Assembly (NCBI GenBank): GCA_021776915.1
Contig: JAIQZU010000039.1
Coordinates: 1 to 64,000 of the forward strand
DNA length: 64,000 bases
DNA from: Candidatus Scalindua sp.
GTDB lineage: Bacteria; Planctomycetota; Brocadiia; Brocadiales; Scalinduaceae
Direction of reading: 5' to 3'
This document shows, piece after piece, positions 47,203 to 58,254 of the stretch (its first letter is position 1; the number at the start of each line of letters is the position of its first letter). The notes under the pieces are model-generated. The model had not been told where the DNA came from and searched no databases. It saw only the letters and a list, made by a program, of their open reading frames with translations. The position numbers and the translations under genes are program-made.

Positions 47203-48579
47203 TCAAAAGTATAAGTCTCTTTCACCCTGGATGAGAGATTCCATTTTACTGGATGTCAACTTTCTGACATTAGGATCTGGAATCTTGCTAATTTCTGAGG
47301 TTATAAGGGCCTTTATCTTTTGCGCCAGTTTGGGATTATAATCCAGAAGATATTCTTCGAATGTAAGAAGAGCGTTTGGCTGACAAAAATTTTTGATTTC
47401 ACCGGGTTTAGCGAGTTCCATAAAATCCTCACCCGTTCTGCCTGAACGATAACAGGAGGTGCAGAAACTTGGAATGAATCCGCTTGTGGCCAGTTCCTCT
47501 ATAACTTCTGAAAGGGAGCGTTCATCTGAAACAGTGAATTGTCCCTGTGCTTCTTTGTCGCTGCTGTAACTACCGGGCACTGTCCTGGAACCGGCAGAAA
47601 TCTGAGATACGCCGAGATAAAATAGTTCATCTCTCAACGCTGCATTCTCTCTTGTAGAAAGTATTATACCAGTATATGGGACGGCAAGACGGAGAACTGC
47701 AATTATCTTCTTAAGCTCATTATCTGATACAGGGCTGGGTGGACGAGAAGCAATATCAGAACCTTGTGCCGGTTCAAGCCTGGGGACTGAAATAGTGTGC
47801 GGCCCGACTCCAAAAGTATCCTCAAGGTGCATAGCATGAAACAGCAGTGCCAGTACCTCAAATTTGTAATTGTACAGGCCAAACAGTGCACCTATACCCA
47901 CATCATCAATACCGGCATTTTGCGCAAGATCACAGGCATAAAGCCGCTTCAAATAGTCTGACTTTGGCCCCGAAGAATGCAATGTAGTATAAGTATTGTT
48001 ATGGTATGTTTCCTGAAACAACTGATAAGTTCCTATATCTGTACCCTTGAGCCTTTTAAAATCCTTCACTCCCATTGGGGCAACATTGACGTTTAGCCGT
48101 CTTATGTTACCGTTACCTTCCCTCGTATCATAGACAGTCTTTATAGCTTCTTCTAAATAATCTATATTGACTGCAGGGTCCTCTGCAGAGACGAGGAGTA
48201 GTCGCTTGTGTCCCTGTGAAATAAGGGCTTTGGTTTCTTCACGTATTTCATTTGTATCTAAAAGTCGTGTTCCTGTATTTAAGTTGTCCTTGCTGAAGCC
48301 ACAATAAAGACAGTTGTTAACACATCTGTTTGATAGATAGAGAGGTGCAAACAAAACTAAGCGGTTTCCGTAGATTGACTCCTTGATCTGCTTAGCTGCA
48401 GTGAAGACGCTGTTCAATACGACATCATCTTCACAATTGAGGAGGACGGCAGCATCTTCAGGGCTGAGGCCATTTAATTCCAGGGATTTATTAATTATGG
48501 TTTTGACACGTTGACGGGAAGGACTTTGTGTTTCTCCCAGAATATCAAATATTTTGTCTTCGTTAATAAAGTTTTTCAT
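47203..48579 (-). CDS. hydG: [FeFe]-hydrogenase maturase HydG (tyrosine lyase)
   Basis: 458 residues, the family length. Radical-SAM cluster Cys86, Cys90, Cys93 (CX3CX2C), and a second-cluster motif Cys373, Cys376, Cys399 (CX2CX22C), which distinguishes HydG from ThiH. Known HydG splits tyrosine and forms an Fe(CO)x(CN) cysteine complex for the H-cluster. The start overlaps the upstream HypC-HydE stop by four bases. No hydA or hydF is in the window; the nearest hydrogenase is the [NiFe] type at 54173-58254. Confidence 0.93.
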   Translation of the reverse strand: MKNFINEDKIFDILGETQSPSRQRVKTIINKSLELNGLSPEDAAVLLNCEDDVVLNSVFTAAKQIKESIYGNRLVLFAPLYLSNRCVNNCLYCGFSKDNLNTGTRLLDTNEIREETKALISQGHKRLLLVSAEDPAVNIDYLEEAIKTVYDTREGNGNIRRLNVNVAPMGVKDFKRLKGTDIGTYQLFQETYHNNTYTTLHSSGPKSDYLKRLYACDLAQNAGIDDVGIGALFGLYNYKFEVLALLFHAMHLEDTFGVGPHTISVPRLEPAQGSDIASRPPSPVSDNELKKIIAVLRLAVPYTGIILSTRENAALRDELFYLGVSQISAGSRTVPGSYSSDKEAQGQFTVSDERSLSEVIEELATSGFIPSFCTSCYRSGRTGEDFMELAKPGEIKNFCQPNALLTFEEYLLDYNPKLAQKIKALITSEISKIPDPNVRKLTSSKMESLIQGERDLYF

Positions 48580-49871
48580 ATACCTAAATCCGTAGGAGCC
48601 CTTCCAATGCTTTTAAGCAATTGCAGCGCGTCTGCAATCTGATTTTCAATAGAGACATCTACCGTTGCCCTGTTTGGATAGATATCGTAAAGGTTGACGT
48701 AATCTTTGGGTGTAAGGTTTAGCATAATTGAATTTGCCCCACCCATAAGGGCCATTCGTCTTGCCTGTGGGTTTAGAGACTCAAGCGCTGTAGTAACCAG
48801 GATTTTCCCATAGGGGTCTATGAGTCTTAAAACGGAAAGAGCCTTGAGTACATATTCAGCGCTGGGTGCGTCATGGCCGGAAAGAGGGGTATCAGGATGC
48901 GGAATAAATGGACCAAATGAATACATATCGCAACCCAGATCTTTAGCAAACATAAAATCGTCAATAACACTCTCAGCCTTCTGTCCGGGAAGACCAATGA
49001 GACTTCCACTGGCAATAATGTATCCGATATCCTTAAACAACTCAAGGTACCTGATCCTTTTTTCCAAAGATGAATGAGGGTGCAACTTTGAATACAGATT
49101 GCTGTCAGATGTTTCAAACCTGAACAGGACAGCCCTGGCGCCTGCATCAAATGCCTTCTGATAAAATGCCTCTTCCCTTTCTCCCACACTCAGGAAGATA
49201 AAGACAGGAGAATTATTCCTTATCTTTTTGATTAAACCTATAATATCTTCTGACTTGTAAGATGGGTCTTCACCGGATTGCAGGACTATTCCCTTAAACC
49301 CAAAACGTTTTACTGCATCTGCAACTACGCCGAGAATCTCATCGGTGCCAAGACTGAAACGCTTGAGAGTGGTGTTTGATGAACTTATACCGCAGTATGC
49401 ACATTGGCTCTTACAGATATTTGAAAACTCGATAATTCCATGGACACAGCAGGCATTGCCCAGAAACTTCTGGCGTATAAAATTGGCTGTTTTATGTAAC
49501 ACATCAATTTCGTCTGGATCTTCGCTTAAGAGTAATCTTAACGCCTCCTGATGTGATATTGACTTGCCATAAGTCGCTCTATCAATAATTTTCAGAAAAT
49601 TCTTGTCCAGATTGGGCTTGTCATTATAGAGCCTGGAGAGTTTAACGTCAGTTTCCTTTAGTTCAAAGAACAGTTCCTTCCATGTATCCAGGATTTCTTC
49701 GGCATCCCTTTCATCTATTTTCTGCACTACGAATCCGCCCTGTGCGTAGACGTAATCACCAACCTGAAGGTCGTAGAAGTCGTTCCGTGCCTTCCTCTCT
49801 TCACCAAAATAATCTACAGTGATCAGGTCACCAGTAATACTCTTAACATTTCCGGGGATAGCGTAACACAT
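48576..49871 (-). CDS. HypC-HydE fusion protein
   Basis: 431 residues, about 80 longer than HydE. Residues 1-~75 are a HypC/HybG domain: 'MCYAIPG' with the essential Cys2, then a small OB-like fold 'FYDLQVGDYVYAQGGFVVQ'. After a helical linker (~75-135) comes a HydE-type radical-SAM TIM barrel with Cys153, Cys157, Cys160 (CX3CX2C). HypC is the [NiFe] Fe(CN)2CO chaperone; HydE acts on the HydG product. The fusion places both on one polypeptide and is coupled to hydG. The 5' 108 bases are duplicated at 51354-51461. Confidence 0.88.
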   Translation of the reverse strand: MCYAIPGNVKSITGDLITVDYFGEERKARNDFYDLQVGDYVYAQGGFVVQKIDERDAEEILDTWKELFFELKETDVKLSRLYNDKPNLDKNFLKIIDRATYGKSISHQEALRLLLSEDPDEIDVLHKTANFIRQKFLGNACCVHGIIEFSNICKSQCAYCGISSSNTTLKRFSLGTDEILGVVADAVKRFGFKGIVLQSGEDPSYKSEDIIGLIKKIRNNSPVFIFLSVGEREEAFYQKAFDAGARAVLFRFETSDSNLYSKLHPHSSLEKRIRYLELFKDIGYIIASGSLIGLPGQKAESVIDDFMFAKDLGCDMYSFGPFIPHPDTPLSGHDAPSAEYVLKALSVLRLIDPYGKILVTTALESLNPQARRMALMGGANSIMLNLTPKDYVNLYDIYPNRATVDVSIENQIADALQLLKSIGRAPTDLGI

Positions 49872-50149
49872 AATTTTTATTTAATTAAAAATAAATTTCC
49901 TGCATTATAATATAAAGCTATAGATATATAAAATATTATATTGGTTATTTACCTGTAGAAACTATTTAACGGAGTAGGTAAATTTCAAATTAAGACGGTT
50001 TTATTTATTTTGATGTTTTGGATTCTTTATATAATAATGGGTATAATTCTACTTTTATTTATTTATTTATTTATGTATCTATCCTACCACATAACTTCTA
50101 TAATTTATTATAAATCAGTATATTCTTACAAGAACAGAAAGAAGGCAAA

Positions 50150-51352
50150 ATGATTGTCATAGAGACATTTAAAGGAAAATCCGTTACAGAACACAGTGTC
50201 GAGATAGTAGAACGAAAAGGCACAGGCCATCCTGACTATATGTGCGACGCCATGATGGATGCCATTTCTGTAACGCTATCCAGGGAATATATCAAAGAGT
50301 TTGGAACCATCCTTCACCATAACATAGACAAGAGCCTTCTGGCGGCTGGAATGGTTGACAAGAGGTTTGGTGGTGGCAGTGTCACAAAGCCTATGGAACT
50401 GACTATAGGAGACAGGGCTACATTCAGCGCTTCCGGCATAACAATACCTGTTTCTGATATCGCCATAGATACAGTGAAAAAGTGGTTAAAAGAAAATATG
50501 AGATTCGTTGACCCTGAAAAGCACCTGAAATATAACATTGCCCTTGCATCCGGTTCCGAGGAACTTACGGATATCTTTTTAAGGCCAGGTAAGGTTAGAG
50601 GAGCTAATGACACCTCTGCTGCCGTTGGTTATTACCCCTTCAGTCTTACCGAAAAGGCAGTCTTTGAACTTGAAAGGTATCTCAATTCAAAAAGTTTTAA
50701 AGATGAATATCCGGAAACGGGTGAAGACATAAAGATTATGGGTCTCAGGAATGAAGAATGCCTTGATATAACGGTCGCTATGCCGTTACTTGCCAATTAC
50801 GTTCAATCAGAAAAAGAGTATTTTGAGAGGAAAAACACTGTCTATAAAGAGATAGTCGAGTTTCTGGAAAAATATAGAGGATTCCAAAACATAGAGGTTC
50901 ATTTGAATACCCTTGATGAAAAGGGCAGGGGACTTGGCGGCATTTATCTCACTCTTTTGGGCACTTCCGCAGAAGATGCGGATTCAGGACAGGTAGGTCG
51001 TGGCAACAGAGTGAACGGTCTCATCTCCGTGAACAGACCCATTGGCACGGAGGCATCGGCAGGTAAGAATCCCGTAAGTCATGTCGGCAAGATATACAAT
51101 GTTCTTGCCCATAAGATAGCGCAGGAGATCTATGAATCCACAGAGGGAATAAAAGAGGTCTATGTTCTGCTTTTGAGCAGGATAGGCACACCAATCGATA
51201 AACCACAGATGGCAACTGCACAGATATTATTTGAGGAGGGAAGAGAGATAAAGGAAGTAGCAGAGAAAGCGGAAGGGATAATTGATAGCAGATTAAAAAA
51301 AATCAATACCTTCTGCCTTGAACTTGGGGATGGGAAATATCCTGTCTGTTAA
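50150..51352 (+). CDS. metK: S-adenosylmethionine synthetase, archaeal type
   Basis: 400 residues. Archaeal-type MAT family (PF01941): 'ERKGTGHPDYMCD', 'GGGSVTKPMEL' and 'GRGNRVNGLISVNRP', unlike the bacterial MetK. Makes SAM, the cosubstrate of the adjacent radical-SAM maturases, though a general role is equally possible. AGAAAGAAGG precedes the ATG. Divergent from hypC-hydE over a 278-base AT-rich gap containing five TTTA units near 50059-50075. It is flanked by 108-base direct repeats (49764-49871 and 51354-51461). Confidence 0.93.
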   Translation: MIVIETFKGKSVTEHSVEIVERKGTGHPDYMCDAMMDAISVTLSREYIKEFGTILHHNIDKSLLAAGMVDKRFGGGSVTKPMELTIGDRATFSASGITIPVSDIAIDTVKKWLKENMRFVDPEKHLKYNIALASGSEELTDIFLRPGKVRGANDTSAAVGYYPFSLTEKAVFELERYLNSKSFKDEYPETGEDIKIMGLRNEECLDITVAMPLLANYVQSEKEYFERKNTVYKEIVEFLEKYRGFQNIEVHLNTLDEKGRGLGGIYLTLLGTSAEDADSGQVGRGNRVNGLISVNRPIGTEASAGKNPVSHVGKIYNVLAHKIAQEIYESTEGIKEVYVLLLSRIGTPIDKPQMATAQILFEEGREIKEVAEKAEGIIDSRLKKINTFCLELGDGKYPVC

Positions 51353-51353
51353 T

Positions 51354-51461
51354 CTGAAGGTCGTAGAAGTCGTTCCGTGCCTTCCTCTCTTCACCAAAAT
51401 AATCTACAGTGATCAGGTCACCAGTAATACTCTTTACATTTCCGGGGATAGCGTAACACAT
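51354..51461 (-). pseudogene. Duplicated 5' fragment of hypC-hydE
   Basis: 108 bases identical to 49764-49871 except one substitution. It encodes the HypC domain's first 36 residues on the minus strand and then runs antisense into the metK 3' end. It has the start codon but none of the rest, so it is non-functional, and it shows that metK sits between direct repeats. Confidence 0.93.
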
Positions 51462-51554: not shown

Positions 51555-52928
51555 TTATACAGGAAATGAAACAGTAACCGTTGTGCCTTTTCCGAATTTA
51601 CTTTGCACATCAATGTGTCCATCGTATCTTTTAATCAGATTCTTGACTATAGTCAATCCTAACCCTGTACCATCTGATTCGGTAGCTTTTGCATTTTGAG
51701 ATCTGTAAAATTCGTCAAAGATCTTATTAATGTCATCTTTATGAATTCCGATTCCTGTATCAGAGATATCTATTCTAATTTCATTGTCAGTAATTATGTT
51801 GCTTATGTTTATTGTACCACCTTCTCTGGTATACTTTATGGCATTACCAATCAGGTTTGTCATGATAATATCCAGATCATCAGGAATTATATTCAGATAA
51901 GCAGGTTTTCCAGTGGTATGAACTGTAAGTTTGATATTCTTTTCCTTCACTTTTTCCTGCATCAGATCAAGTGTACATTTAACGGCTTCATTTATATCTA
52001 CCGGTTTACTATCGCCCTCTCTCGGCTTTCCTGTTTTGCCTGTAACCAGATCAAGCAGGTCTTTAACGAGTGTCAAAAGAAAACCGGTCCTTCTCTCAGA
52101 TCTTATGATTAATTCTTTTGCCTTCTCTGAGACTTCTCCCGCATAGCCTTCTTCGATTGATTTTAAGAGACTTTGTATTGCGCTTAAGGGTGACCTGAGT
52201 TCATGCGTAACCTTGTATGTAAACTCACTCTTTTCCCTGTCCTTTCCTTCCAGCGCTTGATATGCGTCAGTGATTTTATCCTTGAGAACTATTATTTCTT
52301 TTTCTCTCTTCCTGATTTGATTGGCAATACTGGTAGCTAAATATGCAGAGACGTATAAAGAGGTGATGCAGAAGAAAAGAACAGACAATAGATAAAGACT
52401 GTTATCATAAATTGCATTTGGAAATAGTTCTTTAATCTGAACATGGGGGATTATATTTACATATTCCAGGATTGACAGGCTGATAATTAGCAGCACTGCG
52501 AAAGACGTCTGGAGATAACAGGCTTTTCTTGATAAAAGGATTGCGGCAATAATCACATGAAATATAAAATAAAATATTACGGGACTTTCAATGCCACCCG
52601 TGTAATGTACAAGAAAGACAAGGGCAATCCAGTCTGTGAAAATCTGCAGGTTGGCAAATCGGTGATGTGATTTTATATACTGGTTGTAAGATATACATTT
52701 TATGTAATGGTGATAGGTTATACAAACGAAGTTAAATAACAAGATGCAGGCGGCTATAATTAATATTGGTATAAAAGGCAGGCCAATATTCAGGATAAAG
52801 CAGGCTATTAAAGAAGTGGCACATATTCCAGCGACAGTGATCCAGCGAAGGGTTAAAAACCATAAAACCCTCTCTATGAGCTCCTCTTCTACTGAGGATC
52901 TTTCAGATACCGGGGTGCCTGGTAACAT
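51555..52928 (-). CDS. Membrane sensor histidine kinase
   Basis: 457 residues. Six to seven membrane helices (~22-200) form the input domain. HisKA with His242 ('KVTHELRSPLSAI') is followed by HATPase with 'DTGIGIHKDD' and 'GTGLGLTIVKNLI'. Upstream of (and possibly co-regulated with) the adjacent response regulator on the same strand. The signal is unknown; the location between hydrogenase maturation and structural genes suggests hydrogen or redox state (inference). Confidence 0.92.
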   Translation of the reverse strand: MLPGTPVSERSSVEEELIERVLWFLTLRWITVAGICATSLIACFILNIGLPFIPILIIAACILLFNFVCITYHHYIKCISYNQYIKSHHRFANLQIFTDWIALVFLVHYTGGIESPVIFYFIFHVIIAAILLSRKACYLQTSFAVLLIISLSILEYVNIIPHVQIKELFPNAIYDNSLYLLSVLFFCITSLYVSAYLATSIANQIRKREKEIIVLKDKITDAYQALEGKDREKSEFTYKVTHELRSPLSAIQSLLKSIEEGYAGEVSEKAKELIIRSERRTGFLLTLVKDLLDLVTGKTGKPREGDSKPVDINEAVKCTLDLMQEKVKEKNIKLTVHTTGKPAYLNIIPDDLDIIMTNLIGNAIKYTREGGTINISNIITDNEIRIDISDTGIGIHKDDINKIFDEFYRSQNAKATESDGTGLGLTIVKNLIKRYDGHIDVQSKFGKGTTVTVSFPV

Positions 52929-52993
52929 GATTTATTTTAAATGCAGAAATTTGTATTAGATAGTCTTCGGTAATAACCTTGTTCATGATTAAA

Positions 52994-53407
52994 TTATTCT
53001 TTGTTTACCACAAGTTCTGCAACCTTTTTCAACAGCTCTTTCGGCTGGATGGGCTTCTCGATAAAATTGTCAACCGGCAAAAAGGCATCATCCTTTTCGG
53101 GTGAAAAGCTCATGCCCTTTTTCTGTGATATTGCCGTAATCATCAGGATAGGAATTTTTCTGCAATTCTTGTATTCAGAATCCTGCATTTCACTCCGTAG
53201 TTCATAAGCAACATGAAACCCTTCAGTATCTGTTTCCATCATAACATCAAGGATAATCAAATCCGGAATTTCCTCTCTTGCTTTTTGCAGTCCTTCCTTT
53301 CCGCAATTTGCAGTGATTACTTTATAGCCATTTGCTTCAAGAGGCATCCTCATTGCTTCAACAATATCCGGATCATCATCTATGATTAATATTTTTTGAT
53401 CTGTCAT
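52994..53407 (-). CDS. Single-domain response regulator
   Basis: 137 residues. Receiver with acidic pocket 'IDDDPD', phosphoacceptor Asp in 'LIILDVMME' and Lys in 'IEKPIQP'. No output domain. A ~12-residue insertion after beta4 ('KKGMSFSPEKDDAFL'). Partner of the adjacent kinase. Its effect must be through protein contact or a phosphorelay. Confidence 0.9.
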   Translation of the reverse strand: MTDQKILIIDDDPDIVEAMRMPLEANGYKVITANCGKEGLQKAREEIPDLIILDVMMETDTEGFHVAYELRSEMQDSEYKNCRKIPILMITAISQKKGMSFSPEKDDAFLPVDNFIEKPIQPKELLKKVAELVVNKE

Positions 53408-53697: not shown

Positions 53698-54180
53698 TCA
53701 GACAGACAGAGTACTGCAAACTTCTTCAATTCTCCTTAGTACGGTATTTATTATGTCTGGCATTGAATCTGTTAACTCTTTAGAAAGAGTAGTGCCGTAA
53801 TTAATAGTCTTTGGCTGGATGCCCACAATCTCTATTTTTGGAGAAACTTCAAGCAGTTCTGTCATTTTAATTACTTCCATAAGATCGGTATCATGTAATG
53901 AATACTTCTTCTTGTGGTAGAGTGAACGGACGTCTTCTGATCTAAATGTTGTAATAGTGCCTGGCGCCTTGCCGGCTCCAACTGCGTCAATAAAAATCAC
54001 TCTTACCGCCCCATGCATGAGATCGATTAGTTTAAACCCGCCTGTACCGCCATCATATATTTCTATATTCCGGGGAAGATCATATTTCTCCAATTCATTG
54101 ATTGTGTGGACGCCAATACCTTCATCCATGAGTAATAAATTACCAATCCCAATAACCACTATCCTGTTATTGTCATTCAT
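53698..54180 (-). CDS. [NiFe]-hydrogenase maturation endopeptidase
   Basis: 160 residues, HycI/HoxW/HyaD family. 'GIGNLLLMDEGIGVH' contains the Asp/Glu nickel ligand and 'FIDAVGAGKAPG' the second. Removes the C-terminal tail of the large subunit after nickel insertion. The start overlaps the large-subunit stop by eight bases, so its substrate is almost certainly that protein. Confidence 0.93.
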   Translation of the reverse strand: MNDNNRIVVIGIGNLLLMDEGIGVHTINELEKYDLPRNIEIYDGGTGGFKLIDLMHGAVRVIFIDAVGAGKAPGTITTFRSEDVRSLYHKKKYSLHDTDLMEVIKMTELLEVSPKIEIVGIQPKTINYGTTLSKELTDSMPDIINTVLRRIEEVCSTLSV

Positions 54181-55465
54181 TTACAAATTTTACCTTCATT
54201 AAATGTGTCGCACATGATATGCATGGATCATAAGCCCTTACAAGCATTTCTATGTCAAGGATTATGTCATCCTTTTCTTTATGTAAAATATCCGGTACCA
54301 GGGTTCTTAAATCATTTTCAATGTTTGCAAGGTTCTGGCCGGTTGGAATAATATAATTAGCATAGGTAATCTTGCCATTATCATCTAATTTGTGTTCATG
54401 ATATAATGTTCCCCTTGGTGCTTCTGTGGCACCTATACCATGTCCAGCCTTAGGAAGCAGTTCTATTTTTTCGTCCTTCAAATCACCTGAAATCAGATCA
54501 TCAATCAACCTGATACTGTCTTCAAAACAGTGTACTGTTTCTACTACCTGAGCAATATTATTCATGTATGAATTGTAACAGGGGTGCCTTAATCCCAGTT
54601 CCCCAGCGACCTCTTTTGCTTTCGGGTGCAATTGATCGTAATTATTATTAAACCTTGCCAGTGCTCCGACCATGTAGGAATCTCTATTTGCCTTTGCGTG
54701 TTTTGATGTAGAACTAGCAACCATATACTCTTTTACTTTATCAAGATAGTCTGTCGGTACTACTTCACCATTGTCACTCGATTTGATATTGCCATCATAA
54801 AGGGCGTATTCTTCAGGGTTAGTCAGGGATATATATTCCGTATCTCTCTCAAATTCAGGAGTTTTCAGGCTCTTGAAAAATTTTACCGTTTCTTCTATAT
54901 CCGGCCATGCATCCTCAATTTTCTTCTTGAATTCGGCCAGATCTTTTGATTCAGGATTTTTTGAAAAACAGCCTATCTTCAATGTAATTGGGTGAACGTG
55001 CCTGCCACCAACCAATGCACATAATTCGTTAGCGAGGGTTTTAAGCCGCATGCCTCTTAAGACAACCTCTTTATTGTCTTTTACCATACCAAACACACTG
55101 CCCACTCTGAAGAAGTCAGGTGCTGTCAGAAAATAAACATGGAGAATGTGGCTCTGAATAAATTCGGCGTTAAGTAAGAGCTTTCTTAATTTTATTGTCT
55201 GTGCCGATGGTTCAAATCCGAGTGCGGCTTCAATGGCTTTTATTGATGTTGTAGTATGGGTAACGGCGCAGATACCGCATATACGTGAAGTAATATGTGC
55301 AACCTCTTTATACGACCTGCCAAGTGCCATAGCCTCGAAAAACCGTGGAGATTCCACTATATCCATACGCAGTTCTCGAATCTTCCCTTCCTTGACGTCA
55401 ATTATTATGTTTCCGTGTCCTTCAACTCGTGTTATATGTTCAATACCTACGTGAAAATCATGCAT
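54173..55465 (-). CDS. hyhL: [NiFe]-hydrogenase large (alpha) subunit, group 3b-like
   Basis: 430 residues. Nickel ligands Cys63 and Cys66 in 'RICGICAVTH', and Cys415 and Cys418 in 'DPCISCATH'. A nine-residue tail 'LMKVKFVNE' follows His421, the expected cleavage point for the adjacent protease. With three partner subunits it forms a cytoplasmic NAD(P)-linked sulfhydrogenase-type enzyme. Separated from the small-subunit gene by 185 bases containing repeat B5. Confidence 0.93.
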   Translation of the reverse strand: MHDFHVGIEHITRVEGHGNIIIDVKEGKIRELRMDIVESPRFFEAMALGRSYKEVAHITSRICGICAVTHTTTSIKAIEAALGFEPSAQTIKLRKLLLNAEFIQSHILHVYFLTAPDFFRVGSVFGMVKDNKEVVLRGMRLKTLANELCALVGGRHVHPITLKIGCFSKNPESKDLAEFKKKIEDAWPDIEETVKFFKSLKTPEFERDTEYISLTNPEEYALYDGNIKSSDNGEVVPTDYLDKVKEYMVASSTSKHAKANRDSYMVGALARFNNNYDQLHPKAKEVAGELGLRHPCYNSYMNNIAQVVETVHCFEDSIRLIDDLISGDLKDEKIELLPKAGHGIGATEAPRGTLYHEHKLDDNGKITYANYIIPTGQNLANIENDLRTLVPDILHKEKDDIILDIEMLVRAYDPCISCATHLMKVKFVNE

Positions 55466-55496
55466 TCAATTTTTCCTGAAAAATTCATGGATAGTA

Positions 55497-55615
55497 AATT
55501 CAATATTGACACTTCGACTCCGCTCAGTGTGACATCTTCCCTGACGCATATGGTAACGACATCCTGAGCGGAGTCGAAGGATCCTATTTTGCCGCGATAG
55601 CGACTTTGCTTTTTG
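55497..55615. repeat. Repeat B copy 5 (inverted, inside hydrogenase operon)
   Basis: CTTCGACTCCGCTCAGTGTG and TCCTGAGCGGAGTCGAAG arms around a longer core, with CCGCGATAGCGAC beyond. It sits between small- and large-subunit genes and can form a strong hairpin in the transcript. Confidence 0.85.
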
Positions 55616-55650
55616 CTAAATATAACTTTAGTCACTTCCAACTTAGATAC

Positions 55651-56394
55651 CTATTCATACTTCTCTTTACTATTTCCCCCAAACAGCATGTATTGTGAAA
55701 TGGCTTCATCAACAGTCAATCCATGTTCGCTTAGCAGGTTCTTGTGAGAAGACAGGTTCGGGTCATCTATCAGACCGCGGCAGCCGACACATCCATCATT
55801 ATAGGTAGGGCAGATAGCCTTACATCCGGCCCTTGTAACCGGTCCCATGCAGACCATTCCTTTTTCGAATAGACAGACATTCTCTCTCATCTGGCATTCA
55901 ACACACACCGGATAATCAGGTATACGGGGCTTTTTCCCTAGCAATATTGCCTTGGTTACCTCAATAAATTCATCTTTGTCTATCGGGCAGCCTTGTATCC
56001 AGTAATCTACCTTTATTACGGCCTCAATCGGCCTTGCAGGGATAGTCTCATAATTACCTGCCATTTTACCATATACGATGTCTTTAACCTTATCCATTTC
56101 AAATTGGTTTTTCAGACAATTAACACCTCCGATTGTAGCACAGGCACCTAATGCTATTATGACCTTAGCAGTTTCTCGTATTTTCTTAATCCGTTCTATT
56201 TCAGAAGTCCTTGTTATACTGCCTTCGACAAATGCAATGTCGTATTCCTCGCTTTTTTCACTCATCGCTTCTCTGAAGGAAACAATGTCTATTAAATTGA
56301 CGAGTTCAAGAAGCTGTTCCTCAATCGTGAGAACTACTAACTGGCATCCTTCACAGCTTGTAAAAGAGAAGAAAGCTACTCTTGGTTTAGTCAT
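55651..56394 (-). CDS. hyhS: [NiFe]-hydrogenase small (delta) subunit
   Basis: 247 residues. Proximal-cluster motif Cys14/Cys17 ('FTSCEGCQ'), 'GACATIGG' and 'QGCPI', then two C-terminal cluster sets ('CVECQMRENVC', 'CPTYNDGCVGC'). No twin-arginine signal, so cytoplasmic. Overlaps hyhG by four bases. Confidence 0.93.
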   Translation of the reverse strand: MTKPRVAFFSFTSCEGCQLVVLTIEEQLLELVNLIDIVSFREAMSEKSEEYDIAFVEGSITRTSEIERIKKIRETAKVIIALGACATIGGVNCLKNQFEMDKVKDIVYGKMAGNYETIPARPIEAVIKVDYWIQGCPIDKDEFIEVTKAILLGKKPRIPDYPVCVECQMRENVCLFEKGMVCMGPVTRAGCKAICPTYNDGCVGCRGLIDDPNLSSHKNLLSEHGLTVDEAISQYMLFGGNSKEKYE

Positions 56395-57218
56395 ATAGCC
56401 TCCGAAAGAAATTTCAGGGTATGATAGCTGAATTCAGGTCCGTCCAGGCATACATATACTCCGTTAATCTGACAGTGACCGCATTTTCCAATACCGCATT
56501 TCATACGCCTCTCTAATGACATTATAATATGATCTTCAGATATCTGTTTTGCCTGGAGTTCAAGCAGAACGTATTTATACATTACCGGAGGTCCGACTAC
56601 TAGTGCATAGGTATTAGTTGGTTCCATATCTAAAGGAGGAATAAGCCTTGTGACAACTCCGGATTTGCTGGACCAGTTATCATCCGGTTTATCGACCGTA
56701 ATATCTATTGCTATATCTTTTCTCTTTTTCCAGAGTTCAAGTTCATCTGCAAACAGAATCTCTCCGGGATTCTTTGCACCGTACAGAATAGTTATCTTTG
56801 CAAAGTCGTCCCTTCTTTCAAGTACATAATTGATCAGTGAGCGCAGCGGGGCCAGGCCCAGACCGCCGGCTACAAATAACAGATCTTTTCCCTTCATTTC
56901 TTCTATCGGGAAACCATTGCCCAGCGGTCCTCTAATACCTATGTATGAACCTGCTTCTAATTTATGAATAGCTGATGTAACATCTCCGGCTTTTCTGACA
57001 CATAAACCAATAGTATCTTTGTTAAAAGGGGAGGATGATATTGATATAGGGGCTTCGCCTATGCCAAAAATAGAAAGCTGAATAAACTGTCCTGGATTAA
57101 AATTAAATTCCTTTGTTTCCTTTAACTTTAATTCTATATACTTTTCCATCTCCGTTAGCTGTCGTGTACTTACGACCTCAGCAATTTCAGGTAAAAATAT
57201 GGAATCATTATTTATCAT
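56391..57218 (-). CDS. hyhG: Hydrogenase gamma subunit, FAD/NAD(P)-binding
   Basis: 275 residues. Ferredoxin-reductase-type FAD domain ('GQFIQLSIFGIGEAPISISS') and NAD(P) domain ('FVAGGLGLAPLRSLI'), with a C-terminal [2Fe-2S] motif 'CGIGKCGHCQ...C'. Transfers electrons between the hydrogenase and pyridine nucleotide. Overlaps hyhB by 11 bases. Confidence 0.93.
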   Translation of the reverse strand: MINNDSIFLPEIAEVVSTRQLTEMEKYIELKLKETKEFNFNPGQFIQLSIFGIGEAPISISSSPFNKDTIGLCVRKAGDVTSAIHKLEAGSYIGIRGPLGNGFPIEEMKGKDLLFVAGGLGLAPLRSLINYVLERRDDFAKITILYGAKNPGEILFADELELWKKRKDIAIDITVDKPDDNWSSKSGVVTRLIPPLDMEPTNTYALVVGPPVMYKYVLLELQAKQISEDHIIMSLERRMKCGIGKCGHCQINGVYVCLDGPEFSYHTLKFLSEAI

Positions 57219-58254
57219 CAGTCTTGTTATTTTTGATTACGGCATTAACTGTTTCTACTACATCAATATTAACCGGACACGACCTCGTGCACCGTCCGCA
57301 TCCGACACAAAAAGATGTATTATACCTGGTCATTAAGTAGTTGAACTTTCTATTAAACCTATGTCTTAATCTTTGACCCCTTGTTGACCGGAAGTTTTCT
57401 CCGGTAGATACAACTGCGAAATCTTTTAATGTACATGCATCCCACTCACGACATCTTTCCCCTGATGTCATATTTAAATCCATGCAGTCGTAGACGTCGA
57501 AGCAATAGCAGGTGGGACAGACGATATTACAGCGCCCACATCCAAGACATCTGTCATTTAATTCATCCCATACAGGGTCGTTGTCTGCATTTTTAAATAT
57601 AAGAGGCAGATTAGAAATATCTGTTTTTATCTTATTTTCAAACTTGCCCTCTCGATCATTCCTCAATCTCAAGAATCTCTTTCTGTCTTCTTCACCTGCG
57701 CCTGTATATTTAGAGTATTTCCTTACTATTTCCTCGCCCTGCGATGTTTTAATTGAGGTGTAAAAATAATCACCTATGTCCGTCATCATAATGTCGTAGC
57801 CGTCATCTACGTTCAGACAACCAACACTTGCACAGAGAGCGTGTTCATAGCACGGTTCAAGGCAGTCCATGCCAATGATGACGGTTTCTTCCCGTTTTCG
57901 AGTATAGTTCTTGTCATCGTGGTCAGCTGTAAATATTTTATCCAGCAGACTGATTCCATGAATGTCACAGGGCCTGACGCCGAATAACACCTGTTTTCTG
58001 GACTCAATTACCGGTTTGACATCAGGAAGTGGTTGCGTATCAAAACGTAACAGAGTTTCCTGTTGAGGGAATAGATATTTTTTGGGTGGTAGAATGGTTG
58101 GTATGTAGTCTTTCAGGGGGTCAGAGAACTCATCTATTTCGTCAAAGACATAGAAGCCTTCTTCCTTTTGCTTTACTCCATAAACAGTGAATTGCTCTTT
58201 TAAATTACTACAAAATGTGCCTATGTCTTTTTTACAAATAAGGATATCATTCAT
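57208..58254 (-). CDS. hyhB: Hydrogenase beta subunit, iron-sulfur protein
   Basis: 348 residues. HydB/AsrA-type N-terminal domain ('FGVRPCDIHGI'), then two [4Fe-4S] motifs 'CLGCGRCNIVC' (~238-248) and 'CVGCGRCTRSC' (~317-327). Links the flavin subunit to the small subunit. First gene of the hyhBGSL-protease run. Confidence 0.92.
   Translation of the reverse strand: MNDILICKKDIGTFCSNLKEQFTVYGVKQKEEGFYVFDEIDEFSDPLKDYIPTILPPKKYLFPQQETLLRFDTQPLPDVKPVIESRKQVLFGVRPCDIHGISLLDKIFTADHDDKNYTRKREETVIIGMDCLEPCYEHALCASVGCLNVDDGYDIMMTDIGDYFYTSIKTSQGEEIVRKYSKYTGAGEEDRKRFLRLRNDREGKFENKIKTDISNLPLIFKNADNDPVWDELNDRCLGCGRCNIVCPTCYCFDVYDCMDLNMTSGERCREWDACTLKDFAVVSTGENFRSTRGQRLRHRFNRKFNYLMTRYNTSFCVGCGRCTRSCPVNIDVVETVNAVIKNNKTDDK

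Follow-up and report, generated by a model that had tools for sequence, protein, structure and literature searches.

The window analysed here, 64,000 nucleotides of a Candidatus Scalindua contig, encodes a protein in which a HypC domain is joined to a HydE-type radical SAM domain. The gene for this fusion is followed by hydG, whose start overlaps the fusion stop by 4 nt, and the operon of a [NiFe] hydrogenase lies nearby on the upstream side (Table 1). A first-pass annotation, made from the sequence alone, had described a 431-residue protein combining HypC (with Cys2) and a HydE-type radical SAM enzyme (C153/157/160), an overlapping true HydG with both cluster motifs, and a [NiFe] hydrogenase, hyhBGSL, at 54173-58254. 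All of this held: the fusion was supported by profiles and motifs, HydG by TIGR03955 together with C86/90/93 and C373/376/399, and the hydrogenase is of group 3b type.

Table 1. Features of the maturation genes and the neighbouring hydrogenase operon, in window positions.
Feature	Position	Strand	Basis
hypC-hydE fusion gene, 431 aa	48576..49871	-	PF01455 and TIGR03956 above cut-off; orthologues in ~60 genomes
HypC domain of the fusion, residues 1-64; Cys2 is the iron-binding Cys of the HypC family	49680..49871	-	PF01455
HydE-type radical SAM domain of the fusion, residues 96-431	48579..49586	-	TIGR03956; T. maritima HydE is the best match among solved structures
Radical-SAM cluster motif of the fusion, C153-x3-C157-x2-C160	49392..49415	-	Invariant in 35/35 aligned fusions; common to canonical HydE
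hydG, 458 aa	47203..48579	-	TIGR03955, 522.7 bits; structures 4wcx/4rtb (HydG)
HydG radical-SAM cluster motif, C86/C90/C93	48301..48324	-	Invariant in 24-sequence HydG alignment
HydG auxiliary (dangler-iron) cluster cysteines, C373/C376/C399	47383..47463	-	C373 and C399 invariant, C376 >=90% (24-sequence alignment)
HyaD/HycI-type hydrogenase maturation protease	53698..54180	-	TIGR00072, 131 bits; PF01750, 94.6 bits
hyhL, group 3b-type [NiFe] large subunit; L1 RICGIC, L2 DPCISC and C-terminal extension	54173..55465	-	Profiles, motif alignment
hyhS, [NiFe] small subunit	55651..56394	-	PF01058; NF040836, 208 bits, under its equivalog cut-off
hyhG, FAD/NAD(P)-binding subunit	56391..57218	-	Profile matches
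hyhB, Fe-S electron-transfer subunit	57208..58254	-	Profile matches

The fusion protein starts M1-C2-x-x-I5-P6, with M1, C2 and P6 invariant and I5 almost so in an alignment of 35 fusions. Residues 1-64 match the HypC family PF01455 with 56.7-60.5 bits against a cut-off of 28.5, while the score for the NCBIfam HypC model TIGR00074 is narrowly below its threshold (44.4 bits against 48). Residues 96-411 meet the cut-off of the HydE equivalog model TIGR03956 (262.6 bits against 254.6). The solved structures nearest to the protein are T. maritima HydE and the HypC structures 2z1c and 3vyr. AlphaFold2 predicts a single confident two-domain fold (pLDDT 94.4, pTM 0.92), and a Foldseek search with this model placed T. 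maritima HydE at the top, with complex-B-bound entries among the matches (TMt 0.91-0.96). Full-length orthologues are found in five related genomes at 77-90% identity and across many phyla at 35-53%, which, together with the confident predicted fold, argues that the fusion is neither a chance nor an assembly join. HmdB and other BioB/HydE-like radical SAM proteins (TIGR03957) are of the same superfamily, but the fusion differs from HmdB, reaching only 76.8 bits with TIGR03957 against a cut-off of 320.9. A search of plasmids returned nothing beyond ordinary HydE and BioB relatives. The genes and their domain architecture are shown directly, and at this level the fusion joins the last radical SAM enzyme of the HydEFG route to the carrier of the Hyp route.

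A weaker HypC match in the window, at 51363-51461, was rejected as a further genuine HypC gene, being a truncated 97% copy of the 5' end of the fusion gene. It belongs to a 118-nt direct repeat, 97% identical, in which 51351-51468 copies 49761-49878, and a truncated 52-residue HypC ORF is found there (51303-51461). The space between the two HypC-end copies is occupied by a methionine adenosyltransferase (S-adenosylmethionine synthetase) gene on the forward strand (50150-51352), of the archaeal-type family PF01941, which adjoins the two SAM-consuming maturases; the relatives G345 and G362 have an ornithine-cyclodeaminase-like gene at that spot instead.

HydG clears the TIGR03955 cut-off of 312.15 bits, and its closest solved structure is 4wcx. 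The hydrogenase has the B-G-S-L subunits, the L1 and L2 cysteine motifs, the C-terminal extension and the protease by which group 3b is recognised. No equivalog cut-off of the sulfhydrogenase models was reached, so that the assignment to this subgroup depends on the best match and the order of the genes. The hydrogenase operon and the fusion are separated by genes for a receiver-only response regulator and a histidine kinase (51555-53407), and in G345, G362 and G322, too, the kinase gene lies upstream of the fusion.

The absence of hydA, hydF and hypD/E/F from the window, also pointed out by the first-pass annotation, was confirmed and extends to the whole host genome (3.79 Mb, 95.2% complete). 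Profile searches of this genome found neither HypD nor HydA, and nothing over the family cut-offs for HydF, HypE or HypF. Matches below cut-off to the last three are given by all 14 control genomes as well and are therefore taken as other members of the superfamilies. The only HypC matches in the host are the fusion and its truncated copy.

Within a sample of 392 genomes drawn from the phylum the fusion was found in 14. HypD, HypE, HypF, HydA and HydF were absent, at family cut-offs, from all 14, while a [NiFe] large subunit over cut-off was present in 12; in the two exceptions, G322 and G362, the contig carrying the fusion ends near the place where the large subunit would be expected. In a comparison set of 34 genomes every non-fusion genome with a [NiFe] large subunit over cut-off (12/12) has HypD, HypE and HypF, and every non-fusion genome with HydE (10/10) has both HydA and HydF. 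The genome-wide replacement pattern is shown by these counts: [NiFe]-bearing genomes of the phylum sample carry either the fusion or HypDEF and never both (12 against 12, Fisher p = 7e-7, ancestry uncorrected). The p value is a guide only, given the shared ancestry of the genomes and the hand-picked comparison set. Four of the fusion genomes are essentially complete, namely G088 (one 4.4-Mb contig, 99%) and G275, G195 and G239 (each 100%), and all four lack HypD, HypE and HypF. The same profiles do give matches in E. coli, Synechococcus elongatus, Methanocaldococcus jannaschii, Methanosarcina acetivorans and the 12 non-fusion relatives.

Beyond the phylum sample, a scan of GTDB contigs found the HypC part at 49 more loci, some of which are truncated where the contig ends, and another two loci carry fusion-type HydE with no HypC. 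According to the depositors' record titles, the bacterial loci come from Omnitrophota, Margulisiibacteriota/WOR-1/Saganbacteria, Spirochaetota, Atribacterota, Nitrospirota, Elusimicrobiota, Planctomycetota, gammaproteobacterial bins, Peregrinibacteria, Falkowbacteria, Buchananbacteria and Methylomirabilota, and the archaeal ones from the DPANN groups Micrarchaeota and Nanoarchaeota; other groups are represented as well. Forty-eight of these wider genomes were searched for HypD, HydA and the large subunit, the counts for HypE, HypF and HydF being confined to the phylum sample. None of the 48 has HypD over cut-off, 46 have a [NiFe] large subunit, and HydA is present in 10 and absent from 38. As L134 among the 48 duplicates the genome G175, 61 distinct genomes with fusion-type HydE, 60 of them HypC-fused, were tested for HypD, and it is absent from all 61. 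Most of these are incomplete metagenome bins, in which absence by profile is weaker evidence.

Two outcomes had been named beforehand as refuting the idea that HydG-HydE chemistry serves the [NiFe] enzyme: complete HydA-HydF and HypA-F sets elsewhere in the genome, or a fusion that co-occurs only with [FeFe] hydrogenase. Neither was met. The host has no HydA, HydF or HypD/E/F, and HydA is found in 0/14 and 10/48 fusion-type genomes against 12/14 and 46/48 for the [NiFe] large subunit. The database search for fusions and the hydrogenases accompanying them, which had been suggested as a check, shows the fusion recurring in about 60 genomes, mostly with [NiFe] hydrogenase and without HydA.

The two HydE of fusion type that lack HypC, L141 (9995-11050) and L144 (8854-9384), are from Parcubacteria/Azambacteria and lie in loci with [NiFe] genes, with HydG present in L141. 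No HypC gene was seen near the L141 HydE, and its genome is without HypD or HydA. The fusion-type HydE of L108 (a Falkowbacteria bin) and L109 (a WOR-1 bin) are identical, and at least one of the two is therefore probably mis-binned. Labels of 'HydA' assigned by blastp in L132 and L135 were rejected, as they lie antisense to HydG or the fusion and arise from an overlong query ORF of 1026 residues.

The linkage to [NiFe] operons is shown by gene order, most loci with enough flank having the arrangement hyhB-G-S-L-hycI(-hypA)-fusion-(hydG) across phyla. In a clustering of the genes around the 51 fusion-type loci, those shared widely encode hydrogenase subunits, HypA, HycI and HydG; hydG is within reach in 32 loci, and HypA-like genes are found in 18 (PF01155 was confirmed for one). 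With antisense or spurious ORFs set aside, only a response-regulator family (13 loci) is otherwise of that spread. The fusion is near membrane-bound hydrogenase/antiporter genes in L101, L113, L117 and L124 and near a different large subunit in G239 and L187, and in G012 and G062 hydG is beside a [NiFe] operon on a contig other than that of the fusion. In genomes with HydA, hydG is beside the fusion in only 2/10, compared with 29/38 of those without (p = 0.002, with noise added by contig ends), as would be expected if one HydG serves both systems. Several Omnitrophota loci (L106, 11349-11978, and relatives among L101-L107) have a gene for a Rex-like redox repressor placed between fusion and hydG.

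The HydE domains of the fusion type form one clade, separated from 18 canonical HydE by a branch with 100/100 support. His144 is fixed in the fusions (57/57), where all 18 canonical sequences have arginine, and N130 (Asp in canonical HydE), E364 and S381 are likewise fixed and different from canonical HydE, although the roles of these residues are not established. In the HydG tree fusion-linked and [FeFe]-linked sequences are intermixed; since the phylogeny does not separate the two settings, HydG alone is not diagnostic. Repeated switching is shown by a tree of [NiFe] large subunits, built by a quick method, on which the maturation label changes six times, with at least five changes forced by well-supported branches. 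The large subunits of a fusion genome (L199; G195) and of a HypDEF genome (L066; G122) are 81% identical, and that of the window is 65% identical to those of the HypDEF genomes G138 and G206 from the same order. Those of fusion genomes retain L1, L2, the arginine of EAPRG/EVPRG and mostly the PTxxN motif, and no difference in kind was seen between the two groups in the motifs surrounding the active site. In the fusion genomes L138, L142, L143 and L187 the large subunit stops right at the L2 histidine and has no C-terminal extension of the kind normally removed by the protease.

In the published HypABCDEF system Fe(CN)2CO is bound by Cys2 of HypC (or HybG) together with Cys41 of HypD, and HypC (or HybG) then delivers it to the apo large subunit (PMC8692609, PMC11565642); a 2025 review has six Hyp proteins as necessary anaerobically, with the source of the CO unresolved (PMC12134894). 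The fusion system resembles this one (PMC12134894, PMC11565642, PMC8692609) in its HypC domain with Cys2, in the HypA and HycI-type protease genes of its loci and in having the same [NiFe] large subunits with L1 and L2. It differs in lacking HypD, HypE and HypF, in fusing HypC to a radical SAM enzyme and in its diatomic ligands, which presumably derive from tyrosine through HydG and not from carbamoyl phosphate. HypC/HupF chaperones work with the HypD scaffold, a requirement that the fusion, with HypD absent in 61/61, does not meet. In the HydEFG system a Fe(CO)2(CN)(Cys) synthon made by HydG from tyrosine is handed straight to HydE, which reduces the synthon and generates a diiron species destined for HydF (PMC12752695). 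Shared with that system are HydG with both cluster motifs, the HydE-type fold with its radical-SAM motif and a hydE-hydG-like gene pair; unlike it, the fusion system has no HydF (0/14), mostly has no HydA and is linked to [NiFe] operons, and its HydE bears a HypC domain and forms a separate clade with fixed H144, N130, E364 and S381. The HypX route of aerobic [NiFe] maturation (PMC6802093) is similar in that a dedicated enzyme provides the CO ligand of the [NiFe] site, but HypX uses the HypCD scaffold and formyl-THF, whereas the fusion system is radical-SAM, presumably tyrosine-dependent, and appears to replace HypDEF.

It would seem very likely (probability about 0.87) that HydG and the HypC-HydE fusion stand in for HypD, HypE and HypF in the maturation of [NiFe] hydrogenase. 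The proposal of the first-pass annotation, that HydG-HydE chemistry feeds the HypC domain and the [NiFe] centre, is thereby strongly supported by comparative genomics; the chemistry remains inference, without biochemical data. In the proposed pathway HydG would cleave tyrosine and, at its auxiliary cluster, assemble the Fe(CO)2(CN)(Cys) synthon, as known for canonical HydG and inferred here from the intact cluster motifs. The synthon would then move to the HydE domain, as known for canonical HydE. Instead of dimerising the synthon to a [2Fe] precursor for HydF, this domain may free or reshape the iron unit and give it, as a mononuclear species, to Cys2 of the fusion's own HypC domain, which would replace the HypCD scaffold. 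HypC would dock to the apo large subunit and deliver the iron unit, by analogy with HypC/HybG, after which nickel insertion (a HypA gene is present in many loci) and cleavage by HycI would complete the enzyme. Tyrosine lysis, complex B binding or formation of a [2Fe] precursor, the transfer from HydE to Cys2 of HypC and the CO/CN set that reaches the active site are all inferred for these proteins.

The main unsolved point of the proposed pathway is the ratio of CO to CN, which is 2:1 in the product of canonical HydG and 1:2 in the HypDEF-matured [NiFe] site. Given that the two systems serve large subunits with as much as 81% identity, the iron finally installed is probably Fe(CN)2CO, just as after HypDEF maturation, though Fe(CO)2CN remains possible. 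As canonical HydG gives Fe(CO)2(CN) and not Fe(CN)2CO, the pathway requires an exchange of ligands, unless the active site itself is different. A bolder reading, which we consider likely, is that this is a complete third hydrogenase maturation pathway of bacteria and DPANN archaea, radical-SAM-based, with a tyrosine-derived iron unit and without HypD, HypE or HypF. It would have been swapped several times with HypDEF, the HydE domain converting Fe(CO)2(CN) to Fe(CN)2CO or the sites having a different CO/CN set.

The same ratio is the basis of a rival explanation, in which the ligands supplied by HydG and the fusion are incomplete (CO alone, for example, or one CO with one CN) and unrecognised replacements of HypD, HypE and HypF provide the remaining cyanide or the scaffold. 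In its favour, the unit of canonical HydG has two CO to one CN where the HypDEF-matured [NiFe] site has one CO to two CN (PMC12752695; PMC12134894). However, no further widely shared family accompanies the 51 loci, and HypE and HypF are missing from 14/14 genomes, making this unlikely. Less likely still is that HydG and the HydE domain mature a [FeFe] hydrogenase or some other iron cofactor, with the HypC domain and the adjacent [NiFe] operon being incidental. No role outside [FeFe] maturation is otherwise known for HydE and HydG, and HydA does occur in 10/48 of the wider genomes, but HydA and HydF are both absent from 14/14, HydA is absent from 38/48, and the [NiFe] linkage is seen across phyla. 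On this explanation the [NiFe] hydrogenases of the HypD-less genomes would also be left without a maturation route. It is equally improbable that HypD, HypE and HypF are present and were lost in the gaps of bins or have diverged beyond the reach of the profiles. Incomplete bins do make up most of the 61 genomes, but the 99-100% complete G088, G275, G195 and G239 are also without these proteins, and the profiles work in the reference genomes and in 12 non-fusion relatives.

The protein families involved are already known; for the pathway that they seem to constitute, the literature searched has no description. The first-pass annotation had not known of such a route, and no account of the fusion, or of HydG or HydE in [NiFe] maturation, was found in the open-access literature searched, in which most subscription papers and all bioRxiv preprints are lacking, so a prior description cannot be ruled out. 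A study of the hydrogenases of Saganbacteria and Margulisbacteria (PMC6349859) makes no mention of HydE, HydG or maturation.

If the replacement of HypDEF by HydG and the fusion is correct, it would give one answer to where the CO ligand of anaerobic [NiFe] hydrogenases comes from. A large group of anaerobes seems to dispense with three of the six Hyp proteins and to have in their place enzymes of known CO/CN chemistry, which makes the question of the CO source directly testable by tyrosine labelling. A two-component route may also be simpler for the heterologous production of [NiFe] hydrogenases. The replacement would connect the maturation routes of the two main families of hydrogenase, and the presence of HydE and HydG in a genome need not imply a [FeFe] hydrogenase.
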